64,000 nt of DNA from Chlorella sorokiniana. Lineage: Eukaryota > Chlorophyta > Trebouxiophyceae > Chlorellales > Chlorellaceae. The stretch's first letter is position 1. Every line of letters starts with the position of its first letter. The notes under the pieces are model-generated. The model had not been told where the DNA came from. It did no database searches and saw only the letters and a list, made by a program, of their open reading frames with translations. The position numbers were made by a program, and so were the translations under genes. The stretch spans positions 124,001 through 188,000 of the forward strand of contig CP084616.1 in NCBI GenBank assembly GCA_025917655.1. The letters are read 5' to 3'. Below are positions 36,756 to 58,376 of the stretch, one piece after another.

Positions 36756-37256
36756 GCCTGGCTGATATGTCGATTCTTTGCTGACAAAACTAGTGCTTCC
36801 TGCTTTAATTGCGTCGGCAGCGATGCCCTGGAGGCGGGGAGGGGATGTGCCTGCTGGGCGCTGTGATGTCGCAGCAGCGCAAGGCCGTGGGATGCCGCTT
36901 CACCCCAACTCGAATACCTCACATTGCGAGTCATCAATTTTCTTGTCGAGTCTCAACAACGTATTCACACGAGCCGGCGCGGGAAGAGGAACCACAGGTG
37001 GGCACGCCTCCGGGCACGCCAACCCTGGCGTTGTGCCTTCGCCCGGACCCGTATTCTGCAGGTTTAGGCGGTTCATGGGCCAAGTGAGGCGTGTCGCGCT
37101 TCCCGTCCCCAAGGTCCTCAACTGCGCCACATCTTCCCGCTCGGCGGCGGCGGCGGGCCAGGGCTGCCTGTTGCTAATCGTTTCGAAGGGGATACTATTG
37201 CTGCGATATGAGCTGCCGTTCATGCATACGCCACGATTGCCTGGATGCTCCTGCAG
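36756..37256. other. Gap upstream of the first secreted paralogue
   Basis: 3' flank of the RpiA-like gene and promoter region of the secreted-family cluster. GC content is lower than in neighbouring exons (notably about 36900-36970). No exon or known element was recognised. Confidence 0.5.
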
Positions 37257-38717
37257 ATGGCTTCCTATGCGGTCGCTGCCGTGGTCTGGGCAGCATGCCT
37301 CGCAGCGGCAGCGCAAGGCAAGCACGCCAGCCATGCGGCGACGCTGTGCAGCAGCCACAAACCGCCAATCCCCTGCCAACATGCTGCTGCCCTGTGCGCC
37401 CTCACGCGCTTTTCCACTCCCCAGCAGCCAGCCTGGAGCCGTTTATCAACGACGGCGCCCGTTCCGAGCGGCGGGCCCCTTTGCCACGACGGATGTGGCC
37501 ACCACCAGCCACGACGGCACAAACGTTCCCACCATCGGCGGCATGTTTGTGGGGCCCGCATACCTGGCCGTCTACTCGGCCAACTCCAGCAGCAGCGAGT
37601 TTGTGACTGTCTACGAAACCGCATTCGGCACTGAGCTAGCCATCGAGCGGGGTGGGTGGCGGTGGGATGGCAAGGGCAGGCACAGCAAGGGCAGGCAGCC
37701 TGGCAAGCAAGCAGCCACAGCCAGGAATGCGATTCAAAGACGGCTGCGCCTGCTGGAAATGCAAGCCGGCGCGTGCCCCCACCACCACCACCACACACAC
37801 ACACGCATGCACACATACACGCGCCCCCCACACACACACACACACACACACCCACACACACCAACAGGTGTGTACTCCAGCTGGAACTGCAGCGAGGCTC
37901 ACGGCACCTACACCGCCATCGTGCAGGTCAACACGACCGCGCCCAACGGCACCAGTGAGCCGCCTGACCGCACGTCGGGAGCGCCGCTGCTGCGCAACCC
38001 CACCCCCACTCAAACCTAGTCGCCCGCCACTGGCAGCCCAGAAGCGCCCCTTGCTGCCCCATCCCCCTCTCAGCCACTGCAAGGCAGTACTGCGAGTACG
38101 GGAGGTGATGGACGGCCAATCCATCGCCTGGTGCGCCAGTCAGTCAGCATGACCTGCCATGCTTGCTTATGCGTGCTCGGGCTGCCTTGCACGCACGCCA
38201 GAGCGCTGCAGCGGGCGGCGGCCCGCAAGTCATGTTGCACCTGGTGGCATCAAATGCTGCCCCCTATGCACACACTCACCTGGGCTCACTGGCCCCCGCC
38301 TGCCGCTGTGCCCGCTGTGCCCGCTTTCAGGGACCGCGCCGAAGGCAGGTGCCCATCCACACGCTACCGTTACTACACAACTCTCAGGTCGGCGCTGCTC
38401 GCCCGCTCTCGTGGCGGCCGCCAGGCTGGCGGCCTGCTGCACGTCGGCTGCTGGGCCGCCGAATCAGCTCCAGGAAGCCGGCACTGCAGCAGGCTCCGAG
38501 CGCGGCTCGGCATGGCTGCATGTGGCGCACCAAACTTCGCAGCAGCAGCGCTGCCCTTTGAATCCATCACCCTTGCCCTTGCTGCAGTATCCCGATTGAG
38601 GAAGCGCCCTGCGGCTTCAGCAACGGCATTCAAACAGCAACTTCGGGCGCAACAGCCCCAGCCACAGGCACCACGGATTCGAGCGATGCGGCAGACGCCC
38701 CAGCGCCTGGATTTTGA
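37257..38717 (+). CDS. Secreted four-cysteine family protein, paralogue 1
   Basis: I cannot name this family. Exons: 37257-37317 (signal peptide MASYAVAAVVWAACLAAAAQ; an in-frame Met also lies at 37245), 37428-37651, 37868-37954, 38074-38130, 38331-38387 and 38588-38717. The mature protein starts ASLEPFINDGAR, continues through PTIGGMFVGPAYLAVY and ends in a Thr/Ala/Ser-rich tail (TSGATAPATGTTDSSDA). Four cysteines sit in WNCSE, QYCEYG, GRCPST and APCGFS. IVQVNTTAPNGT is shared word for word with paralogue 2 and contains potential N-glycosylation sites. Intron 1 has a GC donor. Exons 2 and 4 each break frame at a G/C run (about 37470-37485 and 38099-38104), so the gene may be intact with two base errors or damaged. 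Confidence 0.7.
37318..37427 (+). other. GC-AG intron 1 of secreted paralogue 1
   Basis: The donor is GCGCAAG|GCAAGC and the acceptor CCCCAGCAG. The junction is phase 1, as in paralogue 2, where the equivalent intron has a GT donor. Exon 1 is 61 bases in both genes. Confidence 0.6.
37786..37867 (+). repeat. CA/CAC-rich simple repeat in paralogue 1 intron 2
   Basis: Alternating CA and CAC units, with interruptions, run up to the acceptor ACCAACAG at 37867. Simple intronic repeat. Confidence 0.8.
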
Positions 38718-39680
38718 TGCAGATTGCACGGGAATCCCAGTCCGCCGCGGGTGACTGGCATGCAAAATGTGTCTTGCACAATGACTCGCCGTGAATCCCA
38801 GTCCGCCGCGGGTGACTGGCATGCAAAACTTGTCTTGCACAATGACTCGCCGCCTGGGCGTCCGCCGTTTCATTTTGCGGCTGACCGAGCCACGAGCGCA
38901 GCGGCGGAACCTATCTGATAGGACCGCTTCTCTGTGTGTCGTGTATACTCCGTTCTTTGTTGCACCCGCAGTTGGCCTTCCATGGGAGCAGGGTGCCGGG
39001 CGGCACACTGCAGCTTGAGAGGGCAGCTGCGGCCCACCGCCGCTGCGGCAGGCGGGCACCTGCGCTCTCTCTTGCAGATGCTGCAAAGAGGGGGTTCGCT
39101 GTCGGCCGGCACCCGTTTCATTCGGTGTGCTCACACCCGCTTGCGAGGCTCACAGCTCCACAGATCCAAAATTCCGAGAAAGTAGGTGACATATGGCTGC
39201 CCATTATACTCTGGCAGCCGAAGGTTGTTGCTTCGCGAGCGATCGTTCCGTATGCCTCTGTTTCCTGCTATCTGAGTGCTACAAGTCGTATTTAACGACA
39301 CAGGTGGGCTTAAGGAGGTAGTGTGGTTGCCGGCATCTCCGCATGTCAACCGGGGTGCCGCACCCTTGCCGCACCCGGTTGTCAGCGCGTGTAGTACTAT
39401 TCAATCGGCTTGATGGTGCGGGTACACAGGTTCCACAGCCTGCAGCCTGCCTCGTACCCAGTGCAGGGCGCTCCTCGAGCGAGTCTCCGGCCACATAAGG
39501 CGAATCAAGGCATTTTGCAGTGGTGCGCCATGAAGGGATTGCAGCCCCGCCCTGGATCCAGCCGCGTCCCAGTGTTGGCCCTGCGGCGGCACCGCCCGCT
39601 GCCTGCCTTGATGGGCAGGCAAGTGCAAGGCGATGCAACCTGCTGCCAAACACGGGCGCTTGTGCCCCTTTCCCTCGCAG
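38718..39680. other. Gap between secreted paralogues 1 and 2
   Basis: Starts with a two-copy 61-base duplication (38732-38852), followed by about 800 bases with lower GC, most AT-rich at about 39170-39320. This should include the paralogue 2 promoter. No exon is supported. Confidence 0.5.
38732..38852 (+). repeat. 61-base tandem duplication just after paralogue 1
   Basis: Copies at 38732-38791 and 38793-38852 begin GAATCCCAGTCCGCCGCGGG and differ at only two positions plus the junction. The first copy starts 15 bases after the stop codon of paralogue 1. Confidence 0.9.
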
Positions 39681-41117
39681 ATGGCTCACCGGCTTGTTTT
39701 AACTGTGGCTGTGGCGGCATGCCTGACGGTTTTCGCGGCTGGTGCGTGCCGCTCTGCGCGCCCGTGTGTCGCTCGCGCCCCATTGCATGTCGGCTTTTGA
39801 CATCTGGTTGAGTTTCTGCCACTCTGCCGCCGCTTGCCGATGCAGCCCAGATTCCTGCCTCCCTCCCAAACCCTGGCGCGCCGTACATGCTGGAGGGTGC
39901 CTTCATAGTCTACGACGGCTCGCAGCAGCTGGAGGACGGCACCAGCCCCACGATTGCGGGCGGCTGGTCCACCGGCGGGCAGTACACAGCAGCCACCGGC
40001 ATCAACGGCGGCGCAGCCGCGGCGATTGAGACGGGTGAGGGGCGGCCGGGGCGCTCAGCCGTCGCTGCAGCCCCGTTGGGCAGCGTGCCCCGGCTGCTCT
40101 GGCTGCCTGTGTGCGCACAACCTTGTTTGTCACCGCCCTCCATCACCGCGGGCCCACGCAGGCCTGTTCACCAGCTACGAGTGCGGCGACTCCAACGGCA
40201 CCTACATCGCCATCGTGCAGGTCAACACGACTGCGCCCAACGGCACCAGTGAGCCAGGCTGCGCAGCATGAGGGGGCGGGATCTGCTGGGCGCTGCACGT
40301 TGGGCGGGCACCACAATTCAGCTGCCCTTCCTCTCTGGTTTGTTGCGGTTCACGAGAGCGGGCATGCCCCTGCCCCCTCTCCTTCCCACCCCCAGCACAC
40401 ACACCCTGGCCCACCCCCAACCCCCTGCCGCAGCCACGAGCAAGCGTTATTGCGAGGTTGGCGGGGTGGATGAGTTCACCGTCTACTGGTGAGCCCTCAG
40501 CCGGCAGCAGCAGAGGCAGCATGGGTGGGGGCACGCTGCGGGCAGGGCCATCCGCCTCCTAGGCCCCTGGGAGGTGCTCTGCTGCGGGCCAGCCCGGTGG
40601 GGTTGCGCGACAGGTGCACGAGCCGTGGTGCAATGTTGTGGCTGTGGCTGCGCTGCAGGGACCGATCCGAGACCGCCTGTCCCACCGCCAACTTTCGCTT
40701 CTCTCTGGACCTCCGGTGAGCTGCGCAGCGCGGCTGCCTGGGCCCCCGCCAGCGCTGCAACGCGCGTGCCACGTCAGCAGCCCCCTGTGCATGCCGGGCA
40801 CCACGGGCGGCAGCGTGGGAGGCGCGTGCCCGCGGGCCGGCTGCATGCACCGCCCGCCGCGCGCGTCAGCGTCACGTCGTTCTTGCTGCCGCCGCCGCAG
40901 CGCCCCCCTGGAGGACCTGCCCTGCGGCTCCGTCAGCTCCAGCTTCACCGGCACCACCAGCCCTGCCACCTCCCCCACCGACGCCGCCACCGGGTCCACC
41001 GTCACCGTGACAGGCACGTCCGACTTGGCGGGCAGCCCTCCTGCCTCCGGCGCCGACATCGACTCGCCGCCTGCCGCCGGCGGCGCCGCCGGCGCCCCTC
41101 TCACGCCCGGCGCCTGA
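39681..41117 (+). CDS. Secreted four-cysteine family protein, paralogue 2
   Basis: The intact member: exons 39681-39741, 39846-40034, 40162-40248, 40434-40488, 40659-40715 and 40901-41117 sum to 222 codons without a frame break. Signal peptide MAHRLVLTVAVAACLTVFAA, then AQIPASLPNPGAPYMLEGAF. Cysteines occur in YECGD, RYCEVG, TACPTA and LPCGSV, the same four places as in paralogue 1; IVQVNTTAPNGT is identical. The last about 60 residues are Thr/Ser/Pro/Ala-rich (TSPATSPTDAATGSTVTV) and could be O-glycosylated or sit in the wall. Intron phases are 1,1,1,2,2, as in paralogue 1, and exons 1, 3 and 5 (61, 87 and 57 bases) have identical lengths in both genes. No enzyme motif or membrane anchor was seen. 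Function unknown. Confidence 0.8.
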
Positions 41118-42131
41118 TCGCGGGTGTGTTTGGAGCGGCAACAGGCGGCAGCAGGACTGGCGACACATGGCGCCGTGGCTTGTGCGCAAGGGAGCGCGCC
41201 TGCGCCGTGGCAAGGTCTTACAGGCAGCAGCCGTGCCTGCAATTTTGAGTGAGATTTGCTGTCGTGATCTGTGTGCACAGAACAAGTCGAACCAGTCGCG
41301 GCTGAGGCCTTTGCCCCCGTCAATTTTCTGCAATGGAGCTCCGGCTGCAGGACCTCCCCCTGGGCGGGGCAGCGCACAGCCAGCGGGGCAGAAAGGCGGC
41401 AGCGATGGATTGCAGTTCGCTCTGTCTGTGGTTCATACTTGAAAGACGTGGCTCCAGCCACTGTGCCCAGCATCTGGCACTGCTGTCCCGGACAGAAACA
41501 AGCTGACTGCCGCTGCAGCGCCGCCCCCGACGACGGCGGCGGCACCTGCCGGGGAGGCCCTCCGGCGCTGCTAAACGAGTTGAATTTTGCGTGTGTGTGC
41601 TAGGGGCTGGTTGTGTAAGGGCCTTCGAGGCCGCGGCGTGTGGCGGGCCTATGGGGCCCTCCTGCACAGTCCAACGGGGCCGCCTGCATTGATCACATTG
41701 CAACTCAAAATCTTGCGTTGTGACGGAAAGCAGAGCGGTGGTCCCAACAGGGGGCATGTGGCTCTGCAATTCCTGCGATGCGTGTCCCGCCCTGAATGGA
41801 CCCCCGCGACCCAAGTTTTCGCCTGCTCGCCACGTGTTCACCTGTTATTATCGGCTGCTACGCTGCTTACAGCGCTCCGCTTTCGATTGGTACAGGTTTG
41901 CCAGCTTCCTCCCAGGCCAGCCCCTCCTTTGCCGGCCTTTGAGTTCTGAGGTGCGTTCTGGCACTAAATAACGGTGTTACGGTGTGATGGAGCGCCATCC
42001 GCCTGGTGAATTGCTCTGCAGGGCCATCACCTCCCTCCCCGTGCGCCGGCGCCGTGCTGCCTCCTCTGTTGCTCATCAGAGGGCCCTGCATGCTCACCCC
42101 TTGCAGTGGCCTGCCAAGCCCAATCCCACAG
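41118..42131. other. Gap between secreted paralogues 2 and 3
   Basis: About 1 kb with moderate GC. TGTAA at about 41614-41618 could end the paralogue 2 transcript. Open frames here have no recognisable product. The second half should contain the paralogue 3 promoter. Confidence 0.5.
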
Positions 42132-44799
42132 ATGCACTTCCTTTCAGCGCGGTCGGCGCTGCTCTTTCCTTGCGGCGACGTGCGTGGCAGCACCGGCAGC
42201 GGGTGCGCCGCCGCCGCCTGGCGCGTGACGTCTGTGGCCGGTGGCCAGCCTTCCAGCAGCCTCTAGCCCACCACCTCCCCTCATCTTGTGCCGCGCTCTT
42301 TTCTCCAGCAGCATGTCCTGCGGTCTCTTGAGCAGGGAAGCGGCCCCCGGTTCCGGGCACGTCCAGCCCATTCACCCCTGCCAACAACACAGTGGCCCCT
42401 GGCCTGCTCCCCCTCCCCCTCCACCCTGCTCCCGCGCCTGCAGCCCAGATCTTGGTGGCCATCCCCAACCTCTCCGAGCAGGGCGCCCCGCCTTTCCTGG
42501 ACTCGGTGGTTTACGGCTACGCCCCCGACGACGGCGGCGCGGGCAGCGCCGACGGCGGCATCGTGCGCAACGGGGTGCACGCCGGCGACCGCTTCACCTA
42601 CACGCGCTACTACGCCGACGGCCCCCTCACCCTGCTGGGGCAGTACCTGTCCTGGGACTGCGTGGACCCGCAGAACGAGCCGGGTGAGGCGTCCCGCAGC
42701 TGCTCGGCAGCTGCCTGCGACGGCAGCTACGTCGAAGGGAGGATCGGCATCCTGTGAAGGAGGGGGCTTGGGTTGGTGGTGCTGGTGGTACGGTTGCCAG
42801 GATGTGTGTGTTTGTGTTTTTATGGTCGTGGGGAGAGGGGGCGCGGTCGGTGCGCGGCCTGCACGCTTTGACCTGCCCTCCTCCTCGACGCCGCCCTTCC
42901 CTCTCCTCCCCCTCGCACCATTCCTCCTACCAGTGCTTTGCTGCTTAGTGCTGTGCCCCGCCTTGTCACCGCCTACCCGCACTGCAGGCGCGTATCGGGC
43001 GGTGGTGGCGGTGACCAACGTCATTGCAGATCCCGCCACCAACCGTGAGTTGCTGCAGAGGCGCCGCCCGCTCGCCCGCTGCGGTTCCACCCTGCAGCGG
43101 CGGAGCTCAGCGGCGGTGGCGCGCTGAGGGCCCGCCTCTCTTCTGGCTTCCTTCGTCTGGAAGCTGGCTGGAAGCTGGCATGGAGTGCTGAGCTCGTGTG
43201 CAGCGCAGGCGCCTCGCCTCAGGCGGCCCTTGAGAGCCTCGTTGCGTTGCCTCCTGCCCCTCGTTGGTGCCCTCTTCTTCCGATCCCCCTCCCCCTGCAC
43301 CAGCCTTGCCTCGCCTGCTGTCCGTCCGCCTGTAGGGCTGGCGAGGAGCTCGCCCCTCTACTACTGTGAGTTCGGAGTGGTCAGCCCGGCCGAGAACACG
43401 CACGCCTGGTGGGCACTGCCGACGCCGCGGCGGCGCTTTTCCTCGAGACCTGCGCCACGCTGCCATGCCGTTTCGGCCTGCCTGCCGCCGCTGCCTGCCC
43501 GGTCCCTCTTCATCTGCTCTGCCCCGCTTGCAGCACCAGCACCCCGCCCTGAACTGTACTGTGTTGTGCGTGAGCCCAGCCGACGCCTGCTCTTTTCTTT
43601 GCCAACAACCTGCCCACGCCCGCTGACTGGCTTGCAGGGCGTGGGGCCGGATCGAGATGAATGACACCGAGTGGGAGCTGGTGTGCCCGCAGGCGCCGCA
43701 GCGCATCGACTATCGTGACTGGTGAGCCAGCAGCTGCCGAGAAGCTGCTGCACAGCGGCGGCAGCGCTGCCCCTGCTGCGCCAGCTGGCACACAGGGCGC
43801 GGCCGCCGCCCCGCCCACTGCCCTGCCTGTTGCTTGGGCTGCCACACCGTCGGCTTTCAGCTGCGCCTTGCTGTGTGAGGAGGGGCATGAGGCGCAGCCC
43901 CACACAGGCCATGCAGCTGCGACGGCGGGACATGCAGGGTGGCACCGCCTGCAGAACCTTCTTGGGGGCTCGCCCGCTGCTGTGACGCGGCCTTTGCATC
44001 CACACCCCCGGGCGCTACCTTGGCGCAACGCCCGCCTGCACCGCCGCTTCCGCGCTGCCGCCCCCGCAAGCCTGCTGGCCGGCCTCCCTATGCCGCAGGG
44101 CCAGTCCCAACAACAGCTACGTTTGCGGCGAGCCCGACTCAGTGACGGCTGTCGGCACAGCGTCCACGGGGACCAGACCATGCCCGACGACCAGCCCGTG
44201 GCGGCGGCCGACTTTGACGGCGACGGGAGGTGGGAGTGGCGGCTGCACCGCTGCCGCATGCTTCGGGCTGCTGCCTGCTGCGCATGGGGGATCTTGACTG
44301 CCTGCGTGCTGCGGAGGGCGGGCCGGCCGGTGGCACTCTTTCAGGTGCAAAGGAGCGGCTGCTGGTGCAGCCTGCCTGCTGCCGTGGCTGCCGCAGCGCG
44401 CTCCAGCCCTGCCCACCAGCCGCTGTGGCCCCTTTGCAGGCGAACATTTTCGATGCGGACAACGACGGGGATGGCGTGCCTGATGTGACAGGCAGGCCGC
44501 GCTGCGCCTGTGCCCTCTGCCTGCTGAGAAGAGCGATCAAAATCCCTCCCAACCACCGCGCCCAGCCTTGCAGCAAGAGCGACAGGGTTGGGGTGTTATC
44601 TCCCTACCCTCCACGCGCCCCCGTCTGCCCCCCAACCTCCCTCCTCTGAAGCACAAACCACAAACAATCCACACGCACCCCGCCCCTCTCTGCAGACACC
44701 GACAGCGACGGCAACGGCGTGCCGGACGGGCAGGCGGCGACGCCCACGCCCACGCCAGCTCCCGCACCAGGCAGCGGCCGCCGCCTCAGGGCGGATTGA
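42132..44799 (+). CDS. Secreted four-cysteine family protein, paralogue 3, with C-terminal Ca2+-binding-type Asp repeats
   Basis: A diverged, longer member. Exons: 42132-42202, 42444-42683, 42988-43044, 43336-43408, 43638-43721, 44099-44229, 44440-44484 and 44696-44799. Signal peptide MHFLSARSALLF...AATCVAAPAA, with a frame break near 42165-42171 inside it. AQILVAIPNLSEQGAPPF aligns with the mature start of paralogue 2. The four cysteines recur in WDCVD, YYCEFG, ELVCPQ and YVCGEP. Unlike its neighbours it ends with DFDGDG, FDADNDGDGVPD and DTDSDGNGVPDG, the pattern of thrombospondin type 3 or dockerin-like calcium loops, then a Pro/Thr/Ala tail. Frame continuity across exons 6-8 is not perfect by my reading, so the C-terminal junctions are approximate. 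Function unknown; an extracellular calcium-binding role is plausible. Confidence 0.65.
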
Positions 44800-54023: not shown

Positions 54024-57000
54024 TTGATTGGTGCGGTTGCTCAAGCGGCGGTCGATATGGGTGCGGTGGCCAGAGCTTCACCGCCTGGCGGGCCAATTGC
54101 CCAATCGAACCCACAACGCATAGGATTGAAGCGCTTAGGATGCATCGACATCGCGTTTGCACGCGGCGCTAGGCTGCCAGCTTACCGGCCAGCGGCACGG
54201 CGGCAGGCGCTGCCGCCGCCGCTCCGCGCCAGCCAAGATGAACCCCCTGCGGGCGCAGCCGTGGCTGACGAGCGGCCGCTGGTCAACCCCGCGGTTGTTT
54301 CTGCGGCTGTGGCCAACGTCAAGTGCGTGGGGCGCCAACGCCGGCAGGGATCGCAGCGCCGACCGGATGCAGCAAGCCTTGCCCGCTGCCCCTGCTGCTC
54401 TGTTCTGCCCGCAGGCGCTTCCAGCAGCCCGTCTGGCGATGGGAGGAGTCCGACGACGCGGTGCGTGCCTACGGCGCTTTCTTCGGGATACTGGCGCTGG
54501 GCCTGCTCCCCGTGGTGCAGGTGGGTGCTGCCTGCAACCGCACTGGTGCCGACGCCGCCCGGCCCTCGGCGCATGCGCAAGCCCTCCGGCCGGCGGCCAG
54601 CGCACCGTCTTCTGGTGCCGAGCGCCCGTCGGCGTCAGGGCCTTGGCCCCTGCGGTTGCTGGACGGCGCCATGTGTGCCGCACTGTACCGCCCTGCTGTA
54701 CCGCAGGACAACCGCTACGCCGACCTGCCGTACTTCATCGGCCTCGCCGCCATGACCATCTACGTGGGTGCCCACCGCGGGCTCAACTCCAGGCAGCGCC
54801 AGCAGATCAGCATCAAGGAGGGGCTGCTGGCCCCGGTGCTGGCTTCAGGTGCGGCGGCTGCTGAGGCCAGCACCGCGGCTGCGGCCACGGCGCCCGGCTG
54901 CATTACTGTTGGGGGTGTGGGTGTGGGTGTGGGTGTGGGTGGGTCTTGATTAAACGGGTGGCGCTTGTGAAGCACTGCTCGCCTTGTTGTCGACGCCGCT
55001 CTAAAACAGCCCCCTCCTTTCCTCCTGCCTTCTCCTGCTTCCTGAACCCCGCAGCCTCCCTGTTTGGCCTCTACCTGCTGCTGAAGTTCCTGCCAGACCT
55101 CAACCTCCAAACACTCCTCAACGCCTACTTCTGGCTGCTGGGCTCCATCTCGCTCATCGGAGCGTTCGGCCCCACGCTGCGCACGCTGGTGAGCGGCTCA
55201 GCTGGCACGGTACCCGGGTCCACCGCCGCATCAGCCACGACTGAAGGCTGTAGGGTTCCAACGGGTCGGGCGCTCGTGTCGCTCTGCGAGGAGGAGAGGG
55301 GGCACCGGTGCCAGGGCGCGAGCATCGCGCCGCGCGGTGCAGCGCAGCGTGGTCGCGATGCACCTCTAGCCAGCGAGCTCTGCAGCCTGCGCAGCCAAGG
55401 CACGCGTCACGGCACCCTCAGGCCTGCTCCACAGCGCTTTCTTCCTTGCTCCCGCGCAGGGCAAGGGTCTGGAGCAGCCGGTGTGGCGCTTCCAGCTGCC
55501 GCGGTGGATGCAGGTGGAAGACGAGCGGGGGAGACCGTAAGCCAGGGCGATTTGGCGCCCTCAGGTGCGACGACGTGAAGCTGCGGTGCCCCGCACTGCC
55601 GCACCCTCAGACCCAACAGATCTCCAAGAGAGCGGCAAGCACCGAACGCTGGAAGAGAGCTGCGCATGTGTGGACGGCCGCCCCTGGCCTGGTCCAAACA
55701 GAGGACAGCTTCGCTGGCCCACCACTTGTGCGGCCTCCTTGCCGTTGACACCCATGCAATCCCCCCCCCCAGACGTCCTGAGCCTTGTCGCTGCGCTGTC
55801 CATCGCCACGGCAGACGCGTACGCCAACCACACCAACTTCACGCTCAACAACATGATCGCCTGCCTGATTGCAGCGGGTGCGCTACAGCCAGGGGGAGGC
55901 AGGGGGGCGGGCAGCACGTGCACGTGCAACAATCAACAATGCAGCTGGCCGGCATGCAGCTGTCACGGCGTCGGTGCCCTGAGCAAAGCCTGCCCCCACG
56001 GCATCCTCGACCTGCCCAGCCACCCCTGAACGCACGCTCTTTCCTGCTGCAGACATCCTGCAGCTGGTGGGGCTCAAATCGTTCCGCGTGGCCGCCGTGC
56101 TGCTGGGCGGGCTGCTGGCGTATGGTGCGTGGCCTGCAAAGAATGCAGCCAGCAACATGTGTGGCCTGTTGTATGAAGCCATGCCACCCGCAGCCACCAA
56201 GCCTCCACCCGCAGCTCTGATTGTGCACCCCAGTCACCCCTCAACGCTTGTCTCCCTTCCCTGCAGACGTGTTCTGGGTGTTTGGCTCGCCGGCGGTTGT
56301 GGGAGAAAATGTGATGCTGCAGGTGGGTGGCAGGAAAGCAACAGTCTTTGGGAACCTTTGGCGGGCAGCGCTTCTGAAGCGCAAGGCCAACTGGGTGTTT
56401 CATCAGAGGGACCCTGGGTTCATTGGCCTTGTTTTTTTTTGGGGGGGGGAAGTCGAGAACCCTTCCATTCCACGCGCACACACTCTTGAAGGAGGACCGC
56501 AGCTGCCCGCCTCAACAGCGCCCAGCCGCGCGCTGCAGGTGGCGACATCCGACATCCTCACGGGGCCCATCCGCCTGCTCTTCCCGCGCCTGCCTGGCTC
56601 CATGGGGAGGCCGCTGATTTCCCTTTCAGCCTGCTGGGTGCGCTGTGGCTGCCGCGCTGTGCTGTGATCACGTCGCTGCACTCGGCTCGTGCCGCGCTGC
56701 AAGCTTGTGACGTTCGCGGCGGGTCAGGCCCAGCTGGCGTGCTAGGCTCGTCTGTGTACCCTCGAGCGCACCCAAACATGCACAGTGACACTGCCCCTAT
56801 AGCTCCGCTGCCAGCCAGCACCGCTGCCGCCGCCGCACATGCCCAGCATTATCACCTCACTGCTGCACGTGCCCCCCACCCGCTGGCCCCCAGGCCTGGG
56901 CGACGTCGCCATCCCCGGCCTGCTGGCCTGCCTGGCGCTCCGCTACGATGCCTCCCGCGCAGTGGACCTGCGCGCGCGCGGCGCTGCCGTGGCCTCCGCC

Positions 57001-58376
57001 CTGCAGGACGCCCTGAGCTCCGTGGAGGCGCGCCGCTGCCGCCGCCTGCTCGCTCCGCTGCTGTTCTGCCGCCGTGGGGGCCCCCGTCTGGCTGCTGCAC
57101 AGGCCGACCGTCGACTGCTTGCCTGGCTGTGTTTCTGTCCGCGAGCGGCCCGGCCTTGCACACTCTTGGGAGCTGCCGGCCTGCCAGCTTCCCGCATCAC
57201 ACGCCCACAGCCTGCCTCCCAACTCTCCGGCATCCTGTTCCCCCCCCTTGCCTGCTCCCGCGTGACCCCCCAATCAGGCCCAATCAGGGCAGCCCCTTCC
57301 TGGCAGCTGCAGGGCTCTTGCGCGTCAGGGCCGCCCTAACTTGCAGCATGCCGTTGTCTGGGCCCCACCCCCACCCCCACCCCATCCACCCACCACAGAA
57401 GGGCGCCACGCGGGCTGAGATGGGCGAGGTGGCGGTGAGCGCCGCCGAGAGCGCATACGACGCGATCGCCGACGTCGAGGCGGAGCAGCAGGCGCGCACG
57501 CAGGGGCTCAGCGCCAGCGGCAGCACCCAGACCGTCTACCTGGCTTCAGGTGCGCCCGGGAGAGCATGCAGCCGGACATCGTTTTTGGCAGCTGGACATG
57601 GTTTGTGGCAGCCGGACATGGTTTCTTGCCTTGGCCCGCTTTCGCATGCTGTGTGGCGCTCCGGTCTGCTGGTTGCGGGTGCAGCGGCACGGTACCTCTG
57701 CACGCAGCCCGACAGCATGCATGCACCCCCTTCAACAGACGCCGTGCTGCACCAGCGCACCTACTTCACCCCGGTGATGGTGGCCTATGTGCTGGGCCTG
57801 GTGGTGGCGTTCGGGGTAAGTGAGGGAGCTAGCCCGTTTGGGGTGCGGGGAGCTAGCCCATTTGGGGTGCGGGGAGCTAGCCCATTTGGGGTGAGGGGGT
57901 TAGCCCAGCGTGCCGCCTTGTTCGGCAGCCACGCAGCAGCTCGCGGTGCGCATGGCCTGCGCTGGGTGCGGGCTTCAGCTCTTCGGCTGCAGGGCATGCG
58001 GCGGCGCAGGGGAGGGGGCTCGACGCGGCACGCATGGCCCTCCTTTGCGGCAGCTTTACCGCCCAAGCCACTTACACACACACCTCCGTTGATCTCACCC
58101 GCGCACACACCCGCACACACACATTTAACCCCCCTCCCCCTTCCACCCACCCCCGCGCACCTTCAGGCCAACGCCATCACGGGTCTGGGCCAGCCCGCGC
58201 TGCTCTACCTCTGCCCCCTCACCCTGGGAGCTGTGCTGGCCACCGCGGCATCCAGGCGGGACCTGGGCCGCATCTGGTCCTTCACCGACACCACGGCGGC
58301 GCCGCCCAACCCCAAGCAGGCAGAGGCGGGCGGCGAGCAGCAGCAGCAGGAGCGGCAGCAGGAGGGGCAGCAGTGA
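54024..58376 (+). CDS. SPP: Signal peptide peptidase (intramembrane aspartyl protease)
   Basis: Multi-span ER aspartyl protease that clears signal peptides. Exons: about 54024-54322, 54415-54520, 54707-54848, 55055-55188, 55460-55536, 55773-55877, 56053-56124, 56267-56322, 56539-56637, one from 56894, 57399-57549, 57739-57815 and 58167-58376. The catalytic YD is in LLAYDVFWVFG, split by the intron at 56125-56266; the second Asp is in FSLLGLGDVAIPGLLA, across the intron at 56638-56893; the PAL motif is in GLGQPALLYLCPLTL. ILTGPIRLLFPR and LACLALRYDASR also match. A hydrophilic Ala/Glu-rich stretch of 50 residues or more (exon 57399-57549, EMGEVAVSAAESAYDAIADV) lies between GLGD and PAL, which I do not recall from plant or animal SPP. 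The frame breaks at 56604-56607 (one G short) and probably near 55528-55536. The start at 54024 is uncertain. The C-terminus is Gln/Glu-rich. Confidence 0.85.
54906..54947 (+). repeat. GTGTGG-type repeat in an SPP intron
   Basis: GGGGGTGTGGGTGTGGGTGT continuing to GGGTGGG, within the intron after 54848. Four or more GGG runs with short spacers, so G-quadruplex formation is possible. Too short and too internal to be a telomere remnant. Confidence 0.75.
57571..57630 (+). repeat. Three 20-base tandem repeats in an SPP intron
   Basis: Units GCCGGACATCGTTTTTGGCA, GCTGGACATGGTTTGTGGCA and GCCGGACATGGTTTCTTGCC at 57571-57590, 57591-57610 and 57611-57630, starting 21 bases after the donor at 57550. 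Confidence 0.9.
57827..57899 (+). repeat. Three 24-base tandem repeats in the next SPP intron
   Basis: Units at 57827-57850, 57851-57874 and 57875-57899 have the core AGCTAGCCCATTTGGGGTG. They begin 11 bases after the donor GTAAGT at 57816. A partial fourth copy (TTAGCCCA) follows. Confidence 0.9.

Follow-up and report, generated by a model that had tools for sequence, protein, structure and literature searches.

Three adjacent genes of Chlorella sorokiniana, read on the plus strand at positions 37257-44799 of a 64,000-nucleotide stretch (here the window: bases 124001-188000 of contig C11, in a genome of 38.8 Mb and 15 contigs), raise the question of whether they form an undescribed family of extracellular proteins and, if so, what its members might do. 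The window has a G+C content of 63-74% in 2-kb steps, and its genes are rich in introns. An original prediction, made from the letters of the DNA, had described a tandem cluster of secreted proteins with a fixed four-cysteine signature, conserved intron phases, Thr/Ser/Pro-rich tails and no named family. The three same-strand genes were borne out, while that observation as a whole was confirmed in part and its interpretation supported in part. In what follows, gene models represent splicing predicted from DNA alone, and P1 to P4 are the products of genes 1 to 3 of the cluster and of a fourth gene found elsewhere in the genome. Judged by their sequences, these genes make up a small, real family of apparently secreted proteins that is an orphan in the catalogues and has one dispersed member.

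The gene 2 model is sound. Its six exons (39681-41117, plus strand) encode 221 residues, comprising a signal peptide (MAHRLVLTVAVAACLTVFAA), the four-cysteine domain and a Ser/Thr/Pro-rich tail; all of its introns are GT-AG, all five donors read GTGNGN, and splice modeling recovered the phases 1,1,1,2,2 that had been predicted. The signal peptide occupies a 61-base exon 1 that ends in phase 1 (39681-39741; hydrophobic stretch VLTVAVAACLTV), and the N-terminal half of the domain occupies exon 2 (39846-40034). Cysteine 1 and the peptide IVQVNTTAPNGT are encoded by the 87-base exon 3 (40162-40248), YCEVG with cysteine 2 by the 55-base exon 4 (40434-40488), and ACP with cysteine 3 by exon 5 (40659-40715). 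Exons 2 to 5 also match the family profile, with exon 3 additionally placed by alignment, and exon 6 (40901-41117) carries PCG with cysteine 4 followed by the tail, as recognized by its composition.

Local alignments scored against 1000 shuffles, with gene 1 in its originally predicted model, gave z scores of 37.8 for P1-P2, 10.0 for P2-P3 and 6.2 for P1-P3, and no shuffle reached the score of any pair (the P1-P2 domain score was 255, versus a shuffle mean of 32). The neighboring copies are 35% and 43% identical to P2. As had been claimed, genes 1 to 3 each encode exactly four cysteines, in the contexts NCSE/ECGD/DCVD, YCE[YVF]G, [RAV]CP and [PV]CG.

When the genome was searched with the consensus of a three-gene profile, six of the seven matches fell in genes 1 to 3, and the seventh (E = 0.083) marked gene 4 on contig C6 (about 1,380,907-1,382,353, plus strand). 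Gene 4 is readable from its signal peptide through to its stop codon (AQQFLDFANAGG, WQC, TCELG, ACP, QCGE), its start-codon exon not being placed. Its spliced product scored 63.0 bits against a profile of the cluster genes only, whereas the best of 2000 shuffles scored 7.0. As a genome query, P4 matched the five exons of gene 4 and, after these, genes 3, 1 and 2 (three of eight matches; E = 0.00045, 0.015 and 0.031, respectively), and all six matches to a four-gene consensus lay within genes 1 to 4 at a limit of E = 10. The four cysteines stand in the same alignment columns in all four genes, within a common head domain of ~140 residues. The supposedly fixed signature is therefore kept in the fourth gene, but its residue contexts are looser than had been stated (QCGP, TCELG, ACP and QCGE in gene 4); likewise, three of the genes are adjacent, but the description "tandem cluster" does not extend to the dispersed member on C6.

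We count at least four members, the genome search tool scoring the best candidates only. Searches with P2, P3 or P1 singly gave mostly their own exons, and because P2 missed gene 3 and P3 missed genes 1 and 2, single-sequence queries are too insensitive to count the family. Three further places, on C9 (E = 0.33), C10 and C12 (E = 0.03), were each matched by one query only, were absent with the consensus queries and with P4, and were set aside. By eye, the C9 place resembles a cation antiporter gene and the C12 place a gene for a multi-pass membrane protein. The C10 match (E = 0.02) appeared by eye to lack the cysteine pattern, which is not a formal exclusion. Profile searches of 200 kb of DNA flanking the window, covering all 20 pieces, found no further member, the best E values being 0.86 with the three-gene profile and 0.31 with the four-gene profile.

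Introns 2 to 5 have the phases 1,1,2,2 in all four gene models, and exon 3 of gene 4 is again 87 bases long. When all four proteins are aligned, genes 1, 2 and 4 have introns 2, 3 and 4 at common columns and agree on intron 5 to within 3 columns. Third codon positions are richer in G+C than positions 1 and 2 in all four coding models (gene 3 taken without its 5' exons). The proposal of an unnamed four-cysteine family is thus strengthened by gene 4, an independent locus that preserves both the cysteines and the intron phases. The phase-1 intron at the signal boundary can be seen clearly in gene 2, is plausible in gene 3, depends on the model in gene 1 and is absent from gene 4; since one exon of gene 4 encodes both the signal peptide and the beginning of the domain, this intron is not a family constant.

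Gene 3 keeps the four cysteines, as predicted, but its intron 2 is displaced relative to genes 1, 2 and 4, sitting 15 alignment columns away from the position in genes 1 and 2. The plus-strand splice model comprises a domain exon with cysteine 1 that precedes the displaced intron (42444-42683; also placed by profile and alignment), an exon encoding GAYRAVVAVTNVIADPATN (42988-43044), exons with YYCEFG and cysteine 2 (43336-43408) and with VCP and cysteine 3 (43638-43721), both of which match the profile, and a tentative exon with VCG and cysteine 4 (44099-44141), whose donor at 44141 keeps the frame open to the tail. Introns 3, 4 and 5 lie no more than 4 columns from those of genes 1, 2 and 4 in the four-protein alignment. 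Upstream, a signal-like segment, RRCSFLAATCVAAPAA, joins AQILV in phase 1, as in gene 2. No ATG lies in frame within its exon, and an extra 5' exon was therefore assumed; with an upstream exon at 41987-42040, the proposed 5' exons (41987-42040 and 42148-42202, tentative) give an open model of 253 residues. The phase-1 signal-peptide intron predicted for gene 3 is accordingly plausible in its joining phase, but the start depends on the assumed exon.

The tail of gene 3 is formed from two exons, one encoding ANIFDADNDGDGVPDVT and using a GC donor (44440-44491) and a last one encoding DTDSDGNGVPDGQ through to the stop (44696-44799). Together they give DADNDGDGVPDVTDTDSDGNGVPDGQ and then TPTPTPAPAP. 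The best Pfam match of a fragment of this tail is the thrombospondin type 3 repeat (TSP_3; PF02412), below the Pfam cutoff, and its Asp spacing suggests that it may bind calcium. Beside the exon for the last cysteine, at 44210-44229, a DFDGDG motif that resembles the Asp repeats is encoded in another frame and is not part of the spliced model; it may be a repeat exon that is used alternatively or one that has decayed.

Each product has an N-terminal hydrophobic stretch (best 12-residue means of 2.40, 2.58, 1.93 and 2.27 for P1 to P4), that of P3 being the weakest, and no tail contains a strongly hydrophobic one (0.28, 0.64, -0.24 and 1.18). The domains of genes 1 to 3 hold 4, 3 and 3 N-glycosylation sequons. 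The tails are of several kinds: rich in Ser, Thr, Pro and Ala in genes 1 and 2, Asp-rich and calcium-repeat-like in gene 3, and beginning with AP repeats before a Lys/Gly-rich end that closes in RRKLLAW in gene 4. Their Ser, Thr and Pro contents are 39%, 48%, 29% and 22%, and their net charges are -3, -4, -9 and +11 (P1 to P4). Thr/Ser/Pro-rich tails, which had been predicted for the whole cluster, thus describe genes 1 and 2 but not gene 3, where an Asp-rich segment precedes the short TPTPTPAPAP end.

P1 and P2 both carry IVQVNTTAPNGT exactly, as had been noticed. The underlying DNA is near-identical too, over the 3' part of exon 3 and over the opening bases of the intron that follows, which argues against reading the shared peptide as a protein constraint. 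Where P1 and P2 have identical residues, in a MAFFT alignment that uses the GT-AG model of gene 1, the codons differ at 2 of 19 positions in exon 3, versus 29 of 58 in the remaining exons (Fisher P = 0.0026). Exon 3 contains 28 whole codons, of which 11 differ between the two genes; 10 of these change the residue, and they sit toward the 5' part of the exon. A short gene conversion tract between genes 1 and 2 would explain IVQVNTTAPNGT better than selection on the peptide, although constraint on the DNA or RNA may be an alternative.

Gene 1 (37257-38717, plus strand) was modeled by splicing and by homology to gene 2, with an uncertain start and exon 4. Its exon 3 (37868-37954, 87 bases, with cysteine 1 and IVQVNTTAPNGT) aligns with that of gene 2. 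The original model needs a GC donor for a 61-base exon 1, and exon 2 is in frame only from the acceptor CTGGAG, which has no pyrimidine tract. A GT-AG alternative has exons at 37257-37345, 37425-37651, 37868-37954, 38074-38104, 38331-38387 and 38588-38717, with an 89-base exon 1 ending in phase 2. The identity of exon 1, 3 and 5 lengths and of phases predicted for genes 1 and 2 consequently hangs, on the gene 1 side, on a doubtful model. The counterpart of the 55-base exon 4 of gene 2 is a 57-base stretch with an in-frame TGA, so exon 4 of gene 1 must end after 31 bases.

These irregularities make it a real possibility, toward which we do not quite lean, that gene 1 is a pseudogene, which would leave two working genes in the tandem cluster. 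In addition to the stop in the homologous exon 4 and the nonhomologous splice sites required at exons 1/2 and 4, three of the five donors in the GT-AG model (GTGCAG, GTGATG and GTCGGC, in introns 1, 4 and 5) deviate from the GTGNGN of gene 2, and third-position G+C falls to 0.55 in the last exon. Yet a complete open frame with all four cysteines can still be spliced, and the shifts could also be produced by a faulty assembly. Gene 1 may have drifted to new splice sites, may be decaying, or may contain a local assembly error. Two features of the surrounding DNA are recorded here. A 417-codon open frame (36766-38016, plus strand) spans exon 2, intron 2 and exon 3 of gene 1 in one frame; because this intron, which contains a CA repeat, is 216 bases long, a multiple of three, and is in the same frame as exons 2 and 3, its retention would leave the frame intact. 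Directly 3' of gene 1, two head-to-tail 61-base copies that are 95% identical occupy 38729-38850, and no further copy of this tandem duplication was found in the genome.

Database searches agreed with the claim that no named family applies, as Pfam, NCBIfam and PDB yielded no credible match. Pfam gave no match at E ≤ 10 for P1, P2 or P4 (HMMER filters drop most matches above 0.1) and only chance-level matches for P3 (DUF5348, E = 0.03-0.05; TSP_3 at E = 1.1 in the spliced model). Nothing in NCBIfam came near a cutoff for P1 to P3, the best match (E = 0.045) being that of the P3 tail to a myxobacterial cohesion protein with thrombospondin-3 repeats. Matches to PDB sequences, among them glyceraldehyde-3-phosphate dehydrogenase, ribosomal protein L4, a capsid protein and antibody chains, were judged to be chance (best E = 0.056), and P2 alone had none. 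Prokaryote and viral collections yielded 44, 20 and 85 pattern matches, none of which was confirmed, and a phage collection held no match for P3. Of the 10 frames scanned across the cluster, 7 on the minus strand and 3 on the plus strand, none matched Pfam at a threshold of 0.1, and the listings and abstract openings of the open-access literature contained no description of a four-cysteine family.

The head could nevertheless be a diverged form of a known extracellular fold, such as a beta-sandwich carbohydrate-binding module or a pherophorin-type domain, that lies beyond the reach of sequence profiles. Alternating hydrophobic and polar stretches (GTYIAIVQV and GAYRAVVAV, for example) would suit such a fold, and profiles built from four sequences have low sensitivity. 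Given the Pfam results just described and PDB matches at chance level, we take this explanation seriously but doubt it.

What might the family do? Tentatively, and at little short of an even chance, we propose secreted, probably N-glycosylated proteins in which a shared four-cysteine head carries differing tails and which build or tune an extracellular coat. Secretion, disulfides, glycosylation, calcium binding and location in the coat are what we infer from sequence features. The head would fold in the secretory pathway with two disulfides and would bind a shared partner, either a glycan of the wall or some other protein of the coat. The tails would give each member its own surface, whether an O-glycosylated spacer, a calcium-dependent surface or a polybasic one for acidic polysaccharide, and the members together would build or tune the coat. 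Tandem duplication would have produced the cluster, genes 1 and 2 would later have undergone gene conversion, and gene 1 may now be decaying.

Several points weigh against this proposal. The family is known here from genes and predicted splicing, the start of gene 3 is tentative, and the frame of gene 1 needs irregular splicing. The column of intron 4 in gene 1 depends on gap placement: the three-protein alignment puts it 10 columns away from its gene 2 counterpart. The profile alignment of gene 4 covers positions 3-123 of 148, ending before the fourth cysteine, which was placed by the multiple alignment alone. The tail of gene 3 misses the TSP_3 cutoff (18.9 versus 25 bits for a composite gene 3 fragment, and 9.4 bits in the spliced model), and a TSP_3 search of the same genome gave one weak place elsewhere (E = 0.97), not gene 3. 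Finally, no wall-associated domain linking the family to a coat was found.

It is unlikely, in our view, that the proteins are instead secreted lectins or recognition factors, acting in mating, partner or virus recognition. A role of this kind would fit a common head with variable tails, the strong divergence of the neighboring copies from P2 and the conversion-like tract in genes 1 and 2, but P1 to P4 match no lectin profile in Pfam, and divergence alone is no proof of positive selection. That the models are chance open frames in a G+C-rich genome is highly improbable: long frames are common (221 stop-to-stop frames of at least 150 residues within the window), but the independent fourth gene, which shares the cysteines and the intron phases, contradicts this explanation.

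Downstream of the cluster lies a gene for THO complex subunit 1 (PF11957; 46607-49811, minus strand), matched by 3 of 10 scanned frames, two over the cutoff and one just below it. Farther downstream, a signal peptide peptidase match (PF04258; 1 of 10 scanned frames) ends the frame at 56490-58373 (plus strand). Nothing in the scanned neighboring frames suggested a functional link to the cluster.

Coat proteins of Chlorella-like algae are little known, and one head with chemically distinct tails offers candidates for roles in wall assembly, in the response to calcium and in recognition at the surface. Passages of one review (PMC10762512) describe hydroxyproline-rich glycoproteins for the Chlamydomonas and Volvox matrix and name no Chlorella coat protein. 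The tails of the present family recall wall glycoproteins of the arabinogalactan and extensin types in their [AST]P dipeptides (3, 6, 5 and 8 in P1 to P4), but differ from them in the presence of a cysteine head, the lack of a glycosylphosphatidylinositol (GPI)-type hydrophobic C terminus and a modest Pro content. Thrombospondin type 3 repeats bind calcium and have a characteristic Asp spacing. The gene 3 tail DADNDGDGVPDVTDTDSDGNGVPDGQ follows this spacing, but has about two repeats, and the tails of genes 1, 2 and 4 have none by eye.

Pherophorins of the volvocine algae (PF12499/DUF3707) form a multigene extracellular matrix family in which a secreted, cysteine-bearing globular head is joined to a low-complexity Pro-rich stretch. 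The four-cysteine family resembles them in its layout of an apparently secreted head and a low-complexity tail. It differs in that P1 to P4 have no PF12499 (DUF3707) match at E ≤ 10 and that, by eye, the tails lack a long Pro-rich rod of the PPSPPP type (Ser, Thr and Pro, 22-48%). A DUF3707 search of the same genome also found none, but 14 control genomes likewise gave none, so absence of the domain is not shown. A bolder and rather improbable extension of our proposal is that an undescribed disulfide domain serves as the universal head in this algal lineage, with tails of opposite chemistry swapped for use in the coat, as an independent counterpart of the pherophorins. Ordinary in kind for a green alga and of moderate interest for its head-and-tails layout, the family is best read as pherophorin-like in layout rather than as a member of the pherophorins.

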